DNA of 64,000 bases from assembly GCA_003242085.1 (NCBI GenBank), contig QBML01000014.1:184941-248940 (forward strand), written 5' to 3'. The DNA is from Pseudanabaena frigida (GTDB taxonomy: Bacteria > Cyanobacteriota > Cyanobacteriia > Pseudanabaenales > Pseudanabaenaceae). The notes below the pieces were generated by a model. It made no database searches. It was not told the DNA's origin and saw only the letters and a list, made by a program, of their open reading frames with translations. The position numbers were made by a program, and so were the translations under genes. This document shows positions 3,948 to 35,480 of this stretch, piece after piece (position 1 is the first letter of the stretch; every line of letters begins with the position of its first letter).

Positions 3948-4130
3948 GAATGTAACAAAGCAGCAGCAGTCGCCCAATGCAAATTTATTTACTTGGTTTG
4001 GTAGCGATCTAGAGATAGGGAGAACATGAGTTCGGGATGAGGACAAAAAAGGGAGAAACCGATAAGCTGAAAATAAGTAAAACAAGGTCGGCGTAGTAAC
4101 TCCTGTGACTAATAGTTTAGAAGCCCTATT

Positions 4131-4327
4131 TTGCTATGTCGATCTCGCAAGCGCTCAATCATTGAGACCATCATTGACCAACTCAAAAATATTTCACAAT
4201 TGAGCATTTTCGTCATCGCAGCCCCATCAATGACGCGATCGATGCTATTTACGGTCTGATTGCTTATTGTCATCAACCTAAGAAGCCCTCTTTTCAGATG
4301 GAGTGGGTTTTATCCTCTGCTCTTTAA
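4131..4327 (+). pseudogene. Relic of an IS982-type transposase (C-terminal end, frameshifted)
   Basis: One frame (from 4131) reads LLCRSRKRSIIETIIDQLKN then ISQ. After a one-base loss near 4199 the next frame continues IEHFRHRSPIND, then LIAYCHQPKKP, to a TAA at 4325-4327. These blocks match the C terminus of IS982-family transposases (K-R-x-IIET...DQLKN...Q-IEH-xRHRS...AYC). Stops lie just upstream of 4131, and the N-terminal part and terminal repeats are not recognisable. The remainder of the gap, 3948-4130, shows nothing else identifiable. Confidence 0.75.
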
Positions 4328-4377
4328 CCAGAACTCAGGTAAAGTAGGACTACTCAAAGCTAGTGATGCGGCAATCC

Positions 4378-31552: not shown

Positions 31553-33253
31553 GTGATTAAAAGTAAACCCCGCGATGTACAGGTAATTTATATTGCTGAC
31601 GATACATTTGCTCTGCGATCGCGTAGTTGGAATCGCTTGCGCTTTGAAATTGAATATGCACTCGAAAAGGGAACTACGGCCAACTCGTTCTTAATTCAAG
31701 GAAAGTTGCAAGCACTGATCGATCCTCCCGGCGGAACTTTTAAAGATATTTACATACAGGAATTGCGAAAGCGGATCAATATTCTCGATATCAGTTATGT
31801 AATTCTCGGTCATGTCAACCAAAACCGCATCGAAACCCTCAAAGCGCTGCTAGAAATTAATAGCCGCCTTACATTTGTCTGCACTAATCCGGGGGCGATC
31901 GCCTTACGTCAAAGTTTAGGTGAGAATCTCAAAATTCAAGTCGTGCGAGGGGAAGAAGTCCTCGATCTCGGTAAAGGACATATTCTCAAATTTATTCCTA
32001 CCTCTACTCCACGCCATCCCGACGAACTTTGCACTTACGACCCAAAGACCCAGATTTTATATACTGACAAGTTTTTTGGTGCTCATGTCTGCGGTAATCA
32101 GGTATTCGATGAAGGTTGGAGTCAAATGCTAGGCGATCGCCGATACTACTTCGATAGCACGATGGCAAACCAAGTCCGTCAAGTCGAAGCTGCCCTCGAC
32201 AAAATCGCCGACATACCTGTTACTTTTTACGCCCCCGGACATGGACCGATGTTGCGCTATGGCTTGCACGAATTAGTCAATCTCTATCAGCAATGGAGCG
32301 AAGCCCAAAAGCAACAAAATATTTCTGTCGCCTTACTGTTTGCCTCGGCATATGGCAACACCACAACGATCGCTAATGCTCTAGCACGCGGTATTACTAA
32401 AGCAGGCGTTGCCGTTGAGTTAATTAATTGCGAAAGTGCCGAACCAGAGGAAATCAAGGCAGCGATCGAAAAGTCATCAGGCTTTTTAATTGGTTCGCCA
32501 ACTCTAGGCGGACATTTGCCGACACAAGTACAGACTGCTCTAGGCATAGTTCTATCTACTGCTACGAAAAGCTATCAAGCTGGTGTGTTTGGTTCCTATG
32601 GCTGGAGTGGAGAAGCGGTGGATATCATCGCAGGCAAGCTCAAGGATGCAGGCTATACCCTTGCCTTTGAGCCAATTCGCATCAAATTTACGCCGACCGA
32701 GGCAACTTTACAGATTTGTGAAGAAACAGGTACAGATTTTGCTCAAAACCTGAAACGCGCCAAAAAAGTTCGCACAACCTTAAATCCCGGTAGTACAGTC
32801 GAGCAAGCAGTAGGTCGCATTGTTGGTTCTCTCTGTGTTTTGACAGTAAAGCGTGGTGAAATTTCCACGGCAATGCTTGCCTCATGGGTATCACAAGCAA
32901 CTTTTAATCCTCCAGGTTTAACGATCGCTGTGGCTAAGGATCGGGCGATCGAGTCCTATTTGTATGAAGGCGATCGCTTTGTTTTGAATATCCTTGAGCA
33001 GGGAAAACAACTCCGCAAGCACTTTATGAAAAAATTTGCGCCTGGGGAAGATCGCTTTACTGATGTACAGGTAGAACCAACGGAGGGTGGGTTAATTTTG
33101 CCTGACGGTTTAGCATATCTAGAATGCCGCGTTGCTCAACGGATGGAATGTGGCGATCACTGGATTGTCTATGCGATCGTCGAGAATGGCAGACTACTGC
33201 AATCTAACGGCTTAACAGCAATTCACCATCGCAAGACCGCCAGTAACTATTAG
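31553..33253 (+). CDS. Flavodiiron protein of the Flv1/Flv2 type (altered metal ligands)
   Basis: A 566-residue three-domain flavodiiron protein: metallo-beta-lactamase-like domain (about 30-250), flavodoxin (about 257-395, FASAYGNTTTIANAL), and a C-terminal flavin reductase (about 415-560). The canonical diiron motif HxExDH reads HVNQNR (from His87), and the next ligand His is replaced in TPRHPDEL. The Asp in LYTDKFFG and the His in YAPGHGPM remain. Such substitutions mark Flv1/Flv2, which act with Flv3/Flv4 in light-dependent oxygen photoreduction and electron-sink activity. No partner gene is in this window. GTG at 31553 has GGAG nine bases upstream; an in-frame TTG at 31538 is less likely. 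Confidence 0.9.
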   Translation: MIKSKPRDVQVIYIADDTFALRSRSWNRLRFEIEYALEKGTTANSFLIQGKLQALIDPPGGTFKDIYIQELRKRINILDISYVILGHVNQNRIETLKALLEINSRLTFVCTNPGAIALRQSLGENLKIQVVRGEEVLDLGKGHILKFIPTSTPRHPDELCTYDPKTQILYTDKFFGAHVCGNQVFDEGWSQMLGDRRYYFDSTMANQVRQVEAALDKIADIPVTFYAPGHGPMLRYGLHELVNLYQQWSEAQKQQNISVALLFASAYGNTTTIANALARGITKAGVAVELINCESAEPEEIKAAIEKSSGFLIGSPTLGGHLPTQVQTALGIVLSTATKSYQAGVFGSYGWSGEAVDIIAGKLKDAGYTLAFEPIRIKFTPTEATLQICEETGTDFAQNLKRAKKVRTTLNPGSTVEQAVGRIVGSLCVLTVKRGEISTAMLASWVSQATFNPPGLTIAVAKDRAIESYLYEGDRFVLNILEQGKQLRKHFMKKFAPGEDRFTDVQVEPTEGGLILPDGLAYLECRVAQRMECGDHWIVYAIVENGRLLQSNGLTAIHHRKTASNY

Positions 33254-33290
33254 AAATTGATTTCCCGCCTTAGGCGGGAAATCAATTTCT
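33252..33290. terminator. Terminator hairpin overlapping the flavodiiron stop codon
   Basis: A perfect 18-bp stem (33252-33269 with 33273-33290), loop TTA. The first arm starts inside the TAG stop codon at 33251-33253. Confidence 0.75.
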
Positions 33291-33330
33291 TAGTTAACGT
33301 CAGTTCGGATTAAACTTGCAAATTTTACAG

Positions 33331-33416
33331 GCGCAGGAGTAAAAGCCTTGCTAAGCAAGGCTTTTACTCCTGCGCTTTGAGAGATGGTTTGCTACGCAAA
33401 CCATCTCTCAAAGCGC
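33331..33416. repeat. Two overlapping long hairpins forming a branched palindrome
   Basis: Hairpin A has 20-bp arms (33331-33350 with 33356-33375), and hairpin B has 21-bp arms (33372-33392 with 33396-33416). They share GCGC at 33372-33375. Flanking GTTCGGATTA (from 33303) and TTATCCCGAAC (to about 33435) are roughly complementary, so the whole can fold as a three-arm structure. It lies between convergent genes. Confidence 0.75.
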
Positions 33417-33440
33417 ATTTCAAATTATCCCGAACTCGCG

Positions 33441-35480
33441 TTAGTTAATTGGTAATAGCACTTCAAACTCAGTACCAATAGTCACATCACCGTGATTATT
33501 GAGATAAGGCGATCGAAGTACAAGTTTACCTTTGTGTTGTTGCGTAACAATTTGATAGCAAATTGCTAAACCTAAACCAGTACCTTTGCCTTGACCTTTA
33601 GTGGTAAAGAAATTATCAAAAATACGATCTTGAATCTCCTTAGGAATTCCCAAACCATTGTCCGCAACTTTCACCGATATCCAATTGCGATTATCTATTT
33701 CAGCGATCGCTGATGAAATCACAAGCAAAGGCTGCCACGTGATTTCTGTTTGTGTTTGGAGATTGCCGCGTTCGGGAATAACTTCTTCTTTAAGAATCAA
33801 GTTTTCGCGCTGCCTTATTAACTCAGGATGTGCCTTCAAATCTGCTAACGCATCAAGAGCATTACCAAGCAAATTCATAAATACTTGAATTAGGCGATCA
33901 GTATATCCATTGATTTTAGGCAAATCAATGTAGCTTTTCACGATCTGGACATCCCTAATCCTACCACTGAGAATTGTAAGGCTACTTTCTATACATTCAT
34001 GCAGATCGATAGACTCTGGCGTAGCATGATCTTGCATGTGAGAGAGACTTTGTAAGGTGTCAACCAATCGACGCAGATATCGCGATCCAGATTGAATACT
34101 GCGTACAACCTGTGGTAAATCTGAACGAACAAAATCCCAATCAACTTCTTCAAGAGTTTCACTAACGGTAGTTGCAGAAGTTCCATATTCCTTTTCATAA
34201 GCACGCAGAATTTTCATTACCCCTTCGATATAAGTTAAGAGGCATTCTGTATTGCCATAAATTGCAGATACGGGATTACGAATATCATGAGAAACTTCAG
34301 CGACAACTTGTCCGAGACTAGCCATCTTTTCGGTCTGAAACATCGTAGTCTGAGTTTGCTCTCGCAATAGCTTCGTGGCAAGCTCATGAATATAAGACTG
34401 GGCTTGTAGTAGATCGTGTACGTCTAATACTAAATAAATATCTCCATCTAGATGAACTACCACAGGTTCGTATATTTCATCATTGGTACGTCCTAAAGCT
34501 AGCTGAGATGCCGACACAATCGGCATAGTTCCTTGCAACTTTAGAATGTCTGATTGAACTTGTTCGTACAAAACTCTTAAAGGTCTTTTCGTAAATAGCT
34601 CTAGTGCGTATGGACGGCTCAAACATTCCAAAAACCTACGCCGAGATAGCATTCCCACGTAATTATCTTTCTCGTACAGCACAAGTCCTGGTAGGAGAGG
34701 ATTATCTTTAAAAAGCTGGCTTGCAAATGCTCCTGTTTGCTCCAAATCAATCTTGGTATCGTAAAGATTTAGTTCCGATATCGTAGCATCTAGTGCTAAT
34801 TGACGTTTTGGACTATGAGATGACTCCTCGTTACTTGATGATTCTATTTCTGGCTCATTTGCCATTACCATCAAAGGAATCATAGCCATTTTACGGGCTA
34901 ATTCTTCAGTTGCAGTTTGCCTTATATTTCTACCCTTTATTGCCCCTCTTTCAGATTGAGCCTGTTGGCGTTTGAGATTATTAATAACTGTTGACAAAGC
35001 TTCCGATCTAACTTCTAGATCTAATGCCTGCGCTGCAACTGCAAACGCTGAGCTTAGATTGTCAACAGATATCTTTGGTAATAGATCTATAGCTCCTCGG
35101 CGAGTTGCCCAACGCTTTTCAACTTCTTTGATCTGCGTTTGGCGAGGATTAACTAATAAAACTTTTAATTCAGGTGCATTATCCACACACCATTTACAGA
35201 GTTCTGTTGCTAAGAGTGATGTTCCACCACCATATCTAATACCAATGTCAGAGATGATTAAATCAGGGAGAGACTGTTGAGAATGACGCTTTTGATCGAG
35301 CAACTTAAGTAAATCTTCGGATTCAGGCGCTGCCCATACTTCCGTTTGATGCGATGACAGCGCATTATGCCACATGAGGGACTGTTCCTCAGACAACTGA
35401 GCTAACAAAACAGATTTAGCCACACAACCCCCAAACAATAAAAAATCGATAAAATTTATAGGATCTACATTATCGGACAT
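33441..35480 (-). CDS. Sensor histidine kinase with N-terminal REC-like and CBS-like regions
   Basis: A 679-residue soluble kinase. Residues about 1-165 resemble a receiver (DLIISDIGI, then LKVLLVN). Residues about 240-375 look like a pair of CBS-type repeats (GLVLYEKDNYVGMLSRRRFL; later EPVVVHLDGDIYLVLDVHDLL). A coiled coil leads to HisKA with the phosphoacceptor His in VVAEVSHDIRNPVSAIYGN (about 405). The HATPase follows ([28 protein letters not shown]). The output partner is not encoded nearby. It converges on the flavodiiron gene, and linkage to redox control is only suggested by that neighbour. Confidence 0.88.
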   Translation of the reverse strand: MSDNVDPINFIDFLLFGGCVAKSVLLAQLSEEQSLMWHNALSSHQTEVWAAPESEDLLKLLDQKRHSQQSLPDLIISDIGIRYGGGTSLLATELCKWCVDNAPELKVLLVNPRQTQIKEVEKRWATRRGAIDLLPKISVDNLSSAFAVAAQALDLEVRSEALSTVINNLKRQQAQSERGAIKGRNIRQTATEELARKMAMIPLMVMANEPEIESSSNEESSHSPKRQLALDATISELNLYDTKIDLEQTGAFASQLFKDNPLLPGLVLYEKDNYVGMLSRRRFLECLSRPYALELFTKRPLRVLYEQVQSDILKLQGTMPIVSASQLALGRTNDEIYEPVVVHLDGDIYLVLDVHDLLQAQSYIHELATKLLREQTQTTMFQTEKMASLGQVVAEVSHDIRNPVSAIYGNTECLLTYIEGVMKILRAYEKEYGTSATTVSETLEEVDWDFVRSDLPQVVRSIQSGSRYLRRLVDTLQSLSHMQDHATPESIDLHECIESSLTILSGRIRDVQIVKSYIDLPKINGYTDRLIQVFMNLLGNALDALADLKAHPELIRQRENLILKEEVIPERGNLQTQTEITWQPLLVISSAIAEIDNRNWISVKVADNGLGIPKEIQDRIFDNFFTTKGQGKGTGLGLAICYQIVTQQHKGKLVLRSPYLNNHGDVTIGTEFEVLLPIN

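Follow-up and report, generated by a model that had tools for sequence, protein, structure and literature searches.

A probable IS982-lineage MITE with two overlapping hairpins, and loop inversion in long perfect hairpins of Pseudanabaena

Between two convergent genes of Pseudanabaena frigida, two long hairpins with perfect stems overlap by a few bases and are enclosed by complementary outer arms, which raises the question of what this structure is and whether it matters as RNA or as DNA. A sequence-only reading of the locus had described a clover-like palindrome larger than a terminator needs, able to switch between stems or to form a cruciform. We analyzed the locus and its counterparts in related genomes. 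The term "window" refers to the whole stretch of 64,000 nucleotides under analysis (contig QBML01000014.1, positions 184,941 to 248,940 of the forward strand), and coordinates are counted from its first base. Very probably, the locus carries a non-autonomous MITE of the IS982 lineage, whose hairpins have since served as DNA substrates for loop inversion. The earlier interpretation stands in part; the ends of the element, its target duplication, and the parent insertion sequence had been missed.

Hairpin A (33331-33375) is a perfect inverted repeat with 22-nt arms and 1 nt between them. With its central T-A pair opened, it corresponds to a stem of 21 bp with an effective 3-nt loop (TAA), and its arms co-vary among copies. 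Hairpin B (33372-33416, with one more pair at 33371/33417) is a perfect inverted repeat spanning 33371-33417, with 22-nt arms and the 3-nt loop TAC between them; the orientation of this loop varies among copies and is inverted between orthologues. As described earlier, the two perfect stems share four bases, GCGC at 33372-33375. Both hairpins lie within a 147-bp unit on the plus strand (33296-33442), which we assign to a repeat family of the own genome and the genus as a MITE with IS982-type ends and two internal hairpins. Directly outside the unit, AGTT occurs at 33292-33295 and again at 33443-33446, and is taken from the sequence as the left and right copy of a target-site duplication. The left terminal inverted repeat (33296-33313, plus strand) reads AACGTCAGTTCGGATTAA, where several family copies carry AACGTGAGTTCGGGTTAA. 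Its right counterpart (33425-33442, minus strand) reads AACGCGAGTTCGGGATAA on the minus strand, where several family copies carry AACGTGAGTTCGGGATAA. The complementary arms proposed around the hairpins are therefore real and longer than had been noted: the outer arms of the element, AACGTCAGTTCGGATTAA on the left and TTATCCCGAACTCGCGTT on the right, match imperfectly, at 14 of 20 end positions. The predicted fold of the plus strand is a three-arm clover, as RNA and as DNA, which agrees with the clover-like shape suggested before. The RNA fold reached −86 kcal/mol (z = −15.4) and the DNA fold −54.4 kcal/mol (z = −15.1), and 0 of 200 shuffles were as stable in either case.

The convergent arrangement of the neighbors was confirmed, with open reading frames (ORFs) ending at 33253 (plus strand) and 33441 (minus strand). 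Judging by their translations, the upstream ORF is read as a putative flavodiiron-type protein and the downstream ORF as a putative histidine kinase. The kinase stop codon (33441-33443) includes the two terminal bases of the MITE and is completed by the first base of the right AGTT; according to the sequence, this stop would also have read TAA at the empty site. The ORF list of the window contains none within the 147-bp MITE, and a unit of this length is too short for a transposase, so the MITE has no transposase gene. A separate 19-bp perfect hairpin lies beside the MITE at 33252-33290, directly after the upstream gene, and is probably the 3′-end hairpin of that gene itself.

The sequence-only reading had proposed a search for the same branched unit elsewhere in the genome, and further copies were indeed found. 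Searched with the stretch, the own genome yielded eight near-full copies, including that of the window, together with one contig-end copy, one half copy, and one 66-bp deletion derivative (L011); palindromic self-matches and solo hairpins with the inner core only were also obtained. Alignment revealed a sharp unit of 147 bp, most copies of which begin with AACGT(G/C)AGTTCGG and end with CCGAACTC(A/G)CGTT, and the 18-bp terminal ends are carried by other copies as well. Copies for analysis were chosen as best-scoring matches to the element of the window, so that closely similar copies are over-represented. The counts of flanks and pairing refer to 101 oriented copies, all 147 bp long and including orthologous pairs. 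Of these 101 copies, 76 had flanks that match exactly over 4 bp or more, compared to 5.7% with shuffled flanks. The duplication measured 4 bp in 49 copies, 5 bp in 15, 6 bp in 11, and 7 bp in 1, while a flank match of 3 bp was seen in one further copy and none of at least 3 bp in 24. The base before the element was T in 96 and the base after it A in 86 of the 101 copies.

Related strains with a single hairpin and drift in both of its arms had been named as evidence that would speak against the earlier interpretation. Full-length copies keep both hairpins, and their arms change together; shorter derivatives do exist, namely the 66-bp copy in L011 and an 84-bp copy with one hairpin in L037.

For the parent insertion sequence, we searched with the curated IS982 model NF033520 (cut-off 130 bits). 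Matches above the cut-off occurred in 17 of the 38 genomes of the same family, and the own genome had none. Intact IS982 copies in genomes G027 (L055) and G025 (L057) scored 270.1 and 264.7 bits, respectively. Both are 985 bp long, and their left end (AACGTGAGTTCGGGTTAA) and right end (AACGTGAGTTCGGGATAA) are identical to the versions read in several MITE copies. L055 and L057 thus have the same 18-bp ends as the MITE, with the same asymmetry (GGGTTAA on the left, GGGATAA on the right); the MITE differs in having no transposase gene and an unrelated interior. As only the ends of about 18-20 bp are common to both, the MITE is not a simple deletion derivative of the insertion sequence. Other IS982 copies of the genus (L059, L060, L062, L063, and L065) carry a different end, AACGTGAGTTCGACG. 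Within the window, a sequence match at 4023-4340 (minus orientation relative to L055) marks a decayed, internally deleted insertion sequence of IS982 type. This remnant matches L055 at bases 2-198 (80%) and 878-985 (86%), with the middle deleted, the frames broken, and ends similar to those of the MITE. It is the only match to the L055-type insertion sequence in the own genome, in two pieces, and an intact IS982 copy with MITE-type ends was not found there. It follows that either transposition in the strain is not current or the source is missing from the assembly; the sequence suggests that the strain seems to have lost its intact IS982 source, at least in the present assembly.

MITE matches were present in 26 of the 38 family genomes, all of them of one genus, Pseudanabaena. 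In 14 of these 26 genomes, the match was at E < 1e-20, and some of the 12 weaker genome matches may represent hairpin cores only. For genomes G012 and G013, the best 40 of 151 and of 146 candidates, respectively, were scored, and nearly all of them were full length. A sample of the phylum gave matches in 4 of 194 genomes (best four candidates or fewer scored per genome); two of these, G000 and G026, belong to the genus, and the other two matched over only 27-32 bases of the hairpin core. With regard to the locus itself, we identified 22 loci with the kinase in relatives. The flavodiiron gene is adjacent in six of them (G017, G009, G023, G015, G019, and G024), and in the remaining 16 the upstream neighbor differs or the contig ends. 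The MITE is absent from all six loci with the same gene pair, where other hairpins are present and a search for an end-like site found none. We therefore conclude that the MITE is an insertion in the lineage of the window, based on a comparison of empty sites that is not base-exact because the spacers of the six loci differ. In G008, another MITE copy lies near the kinase, at a different place (L206).

Several further elements resemble the one described. A second MITE type of 149 bp occurs in the own genome at C5:290422-290570 (L022) and C64:39411-39559 (L026); it has similar ends and an unrelated core, in which two hairpins share AGCT(A), with AGCTA in L026. L098 and L177 carry the third type, which is 113 bp long, and L197 has a similar element (genomes G011 and G021). 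The ends of this type are those of the other IS982 lineage, and its two hairpins meet over GC; in L177, a copy of the 147-bp element lies immediately next to it. Finally, L043 (G000:C52:15364-15570) spans 207 bp; its ends are similar, it lacks a matching double-hairpin core, and it may have an AATCT duplication.

In the 101 copies, 2087 of 2121 cells of hairpin A and 2039 of 2121 cells of hairpin B were Watson-Crick pairs, whereas the best of 500 shuffles reached 1980 and 1953, respectively. The 17 interior pairs per hairpin, taken together for A and B, comprised 63 doubly changed Watson-Crick cells as well as 16 G-T, 17 A-C, and 5 other mismatches. Equal counts of G-T and A-C speak for correction of the arms at the DNA level and against pairing of RNA from one strand, although transcription of both strands could blur this comparison. 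Over all 21 pairs of hairpin B, 35 G-T and 24 A-C mismatches were counted, with the excess mostly at the outer four pairs. Loop states were scored in an 86-copy set, which leaves out 21 of the 107 full-length copies (other length or motif). Loop B read TAC in 37 copies and GTA in 37, followed by ATA (4), TAT (4), TTA (2), TCC (1), and AAC (1); the 101 copies including orthologues gave TAC in 47 and GTA in 39. In loop A, we counted TAA 34 and TTA 8, TAC 23 and GTA 8, TAT 4 and ATA 2, and others 7, i.e., uneven orientations, unlike loop B.

Insertions common to G012 and G013 allowed a comparison of loops in place. Eleven such orthologous pairs were found, with flanks matching at 96-100%, and in seven of them loop B is exactly inverted between unchanged arms. 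Loop A differs as TTA/TAA in three of the eleven pairs, which fits either inversion or a single substitution; otherwise, the pairs contain one substitution in loop B and four substitutions outside the loops. An exact 3-nt inversion through independent substitutions is very unlikely at the divergence of these two genomes. The earlier suggestion that the hairpins form at the DNA level thus finds its marks in the loop inversions between orthologues.

We extended the comparison to all perfect hairpins with a stem of at least 12 bp and a loop of 3-8 nt in about 200 kb of G012 versus G013, whose long alignments are 95.5-99.7% identical. Among 62 hairpins compared, 53 have non-palindromic loops that are either the same or inverted; the other nine comprise three without a match, three with palindromic loops, two changed hairpins, and one loop substitution. 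For stems of at least 14 bp, 23 loops were inverted and 25 the same (48 comparable), while stems of 12-13 bp gave 0 inverted and 5 the same. Most of these hairpins lie outside the MITE, as judged by similarity to MITE copies (20 of the 23 inverted and 23 of the 25 unchanged), so that the inverted fraction is 20/43 outside the MITE and 3/5 for MITE-like hairpins. A stricter comparison with exact anchors, covering 45 non-MITE hairpins, gave 17 exact inversions, 26 identical loops, and 2 other cases; in this comparison, the greater length of inverted hairpins reached only p = 0.056. Two findings argue against a simple clock: inversion did not correlate with local divergence (p = 0.71), and where the flanks are less than 98% identical, none of the five comparable hairpins was flipped. 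The inversions are spread unevenly between two contigs of G012 (C90 and C35), with 18/28 in one and 5/20 in the other (Fisher p = 0.0095). G029 and G032, which are further apart (87% identity across 47 kb), lend the effect weak support, as most of the 54 hairpins were unmatched: 2 were inverted and 2 the same, next to 44 without a match, 5 changed, and 1 loop substitution.

A bidirectional transcription terminator or 3′-end RNA element, kept for its RNA structure and dispersed only secondarily, would be another way to account for the locus. The very stable fold of the tested strand fits this explanation, as does the title of a published study, "Clusters of hairpins induce intrinsic transcription termination in bacteria" (PMC8355165). 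So does the genomic context: among 86 copies with two ORF neighbors, 39 lie in convergent, 37 in tandem, and 10 in divergent arrangement, compared to 19%, 51%, and 30% for a random intergenic background of 2541 points with two neighbors from four stretches of the genus (p = 4e-8 for convergent). This count leaves out 15 of the 101 copies (7 without two neighbors, 6 with short flanks, and 2 duplicates), and its ORFs were obtained with a simple longest-ORF rule in place of a gene finder. Context was usable for 93 copies, and ORFs with at least 100 codons contain none of them. Such a placement also fits the MITE reading. The enrichment at convergent ends and the avoidance of ORFs make a role at gene ends plausible, be it by tolerance of insertion at these places or by a useful effect; an effect of the MITE on 3′ ends or in blocking transcription is plausible as well. 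However, the discrete terminal repeats and the target duplications identify the element as mobile, as many as 37 of the 86 copies lie in tandem and 10 in divergent arrangement, and the interior pairs lack the excess of G-U that selection for RNA pairing would suggest. The stems also lack a T-rich tail, and a classical intrinsic terminator was rejected for this reason; 0 terminator-like sites were predicted in 32900-33800, where shuffles gave 1.1 on average. An Rfam search of 32800-34000 at E up to 1 returned 15 matches, all below their gathering scores, 11 of them to microRNA models. The MITE does share perfect hairpins with 3-nt loops with the intrinsic terminators of the host, and the inner core of hairpin A recurs in solo hairpins of the own genome, but it differs from these terminators in the missing T-rich tail and in its terminal repeats and target duplication. 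Taken together, we regard a primary role as terminator or RNA element as rather unlikely, and the earlier view that the structure is more than a simple terminator holds. The proposed switch, in which the four shared bases decide which hairpin is complete, fares worse. An overlap of 2-5 bases does recur in three element types with unrelated cores, and the triple agreement (X-X′-X) on both sides is kept in 53 of 101 copies. Yet competition is limited to 4 of about 21 pairs, the predicted minimum-energy folds contain both hairpins, and agreement is lost on one or both sides in 48 of the 101 copies (left only 36, right only 7, neither 5), so that a regulatory switch is highly improbable.

The loop inversions themselves might be technical, if polymerases or assemblers read perfect hairpins randomly in either orientation. 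A fraction near one half that is unrelated to local divergence would be in line with such a process. Against it, hairpins of about 45 bp should fit within single reads, the inversions differ between the two contigs, and none of the five hairpins with stems of 12-13 bp was inverted; moreover, published work on yeast genes and on rRNA hairpins describes loops or spacers inverted through template switching (PMC8604942, PMC8794818). We thus consider a technical origin improbable, although some technical randomization of loop orientation may contribute. Finally, dispersed palindromic repeats in intergenic DNA would also fit REP or REPIN-type elements moved by a RAYT transposase, but with ends that match an IS982 insertion sequence and with target duplications, such an origin is hardly credible for the element studied here.

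Two observations on gene ends and solo hairpins stand beside these comparisons. The stop codon of a neighboring ORF uses the two terminal bases of the element in 13 of 86 copies, including the kinase, and targets with A as their first and T as their last base favor this. In L012-L019 of the own genome, solo hairpins with differing outer stems have the same inner core as hairpin A (AAGCCTTGC...GCAAGGCTT); this may be a common terminator core or the source of the MITE hairpin.

The preferred reading, an IS982-lineage MITE with hairpins acting as DNA substrates, can be put as a series of steps. Shared ends and duplications suggest that an IS982 transposase recognized the MITE ends in trans, and that insertion would occur into a target of the A-NN-T type with a duplication of mostly 4-6 bp. 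The core consists of two perfect hairpins joined by the 4-base overlap. In the window, the element went in where two convergent genes meet at their 3′ ends; its insertion point is precisely the kinase stop codon, and the sequence shows that the insertion regenerates this codon. Template switching between the arms may then repair arm mismatches and invert loops, a scheme in which the pattern is observed and the enzymology is proposed. RNA made from either strand would have two highly stable stem-loops at the end of the gene, and these may stop read-through or give protection to 3′ ends. The loop inversions are likely to stem from template switching during replication. Loss of a hairpin nuclease was rejected as a cause, since models for SbcD and XseA scored above cut-off in 25 of 25 genus genomes (a set that does not include G012). 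The SbcC model matched in the same 25 of 25 genomes and exceeded its cut-off in 0 of 25; this cut-off was passed by only 1 of 14 control genomes, and the result is thus no sign of SbcC loss.

It is known that MITEs occur in cyanobacteria, Nezha being an example of a bacterial MITE in this group. The element of the window resembles bacterial MITEs as reviewed in PMC10969869, which are short and gene-free, have terminal inverted repeats and direct repeats at the target, occupy AT-rich intergenic sites, and fold stably. It differs from them in its IS982-lineage ends and its core of two perfect overlapping hairpins. That review cites cyanobacterial MITE examples, and its main text names IS982 0 times. 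Among the matches listed in our literature search, the combination of IS982, MITE, and cyanobacteria returned general insertion-sequence work only, and nothing on this MITE appeared. MITEs with stable folds are already well known, and the existence of this one is fairly ordinary; what appears to be new is the double-hairpin build combined with frequent loop inversion.

For inversion of loops or spacers, the matches listed comprised work on yeast, primates, rRNA, and chloroplasts as well as a general hairpin survey, and none of them described loop inversion across the genome of a cyanobacterium (most subscription journals lay outside the search). The spacer inversions described at inverted repeats of yeast genes and rRNA hairpins (PMC8604942, PMC8794818) are exact inversions of short loops between unchanged and similar arms, as observed here, and the same applies to small hairpin inversions in chloroplasts (PMC12928735). 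Work cited in the latter describes hairpin-bounded small inversions as widespread in chloroplast DNA. We infer that the process in Pseudanabaena is of the same kind. A difference lies in the frequency: the template-switch studies report ten events in coding sequences of S. cerevisiae and, for rRNA, 69 loop-only events (PMC8604942, PMC8794818), whereas about half of the comparable long hairpins (23/48) differ between two close genomes here. A survey from 2026 (PMC13155455) reports a raised substitution burden in the spacers of inverted repeats, above all near terminators, and mentions template switching 0 times in its main text.

These results bear on how hairpins in bacterial genomes are read. 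Apparent substitutions in the loops of bacterial hairpins may partly be single inversion events, and template switching would account for the persistence of perfect arms in the absence of selection on RNA. Pseudanabaena offers many equivalent hairpin substrates at known genomic places for measuring inversion. As a tentative and possible extension, the genus might invert the loops of long perfect hairpins, in terminators and MITEs alike, so often that their orientation is nearly random between two strains with alignments of 95.5-99.7% identity, either because template switching is unusually active or because hairpins pass through a dedicated processing step, and double-hairpin MITEs would then represent amplified substrates of this process.
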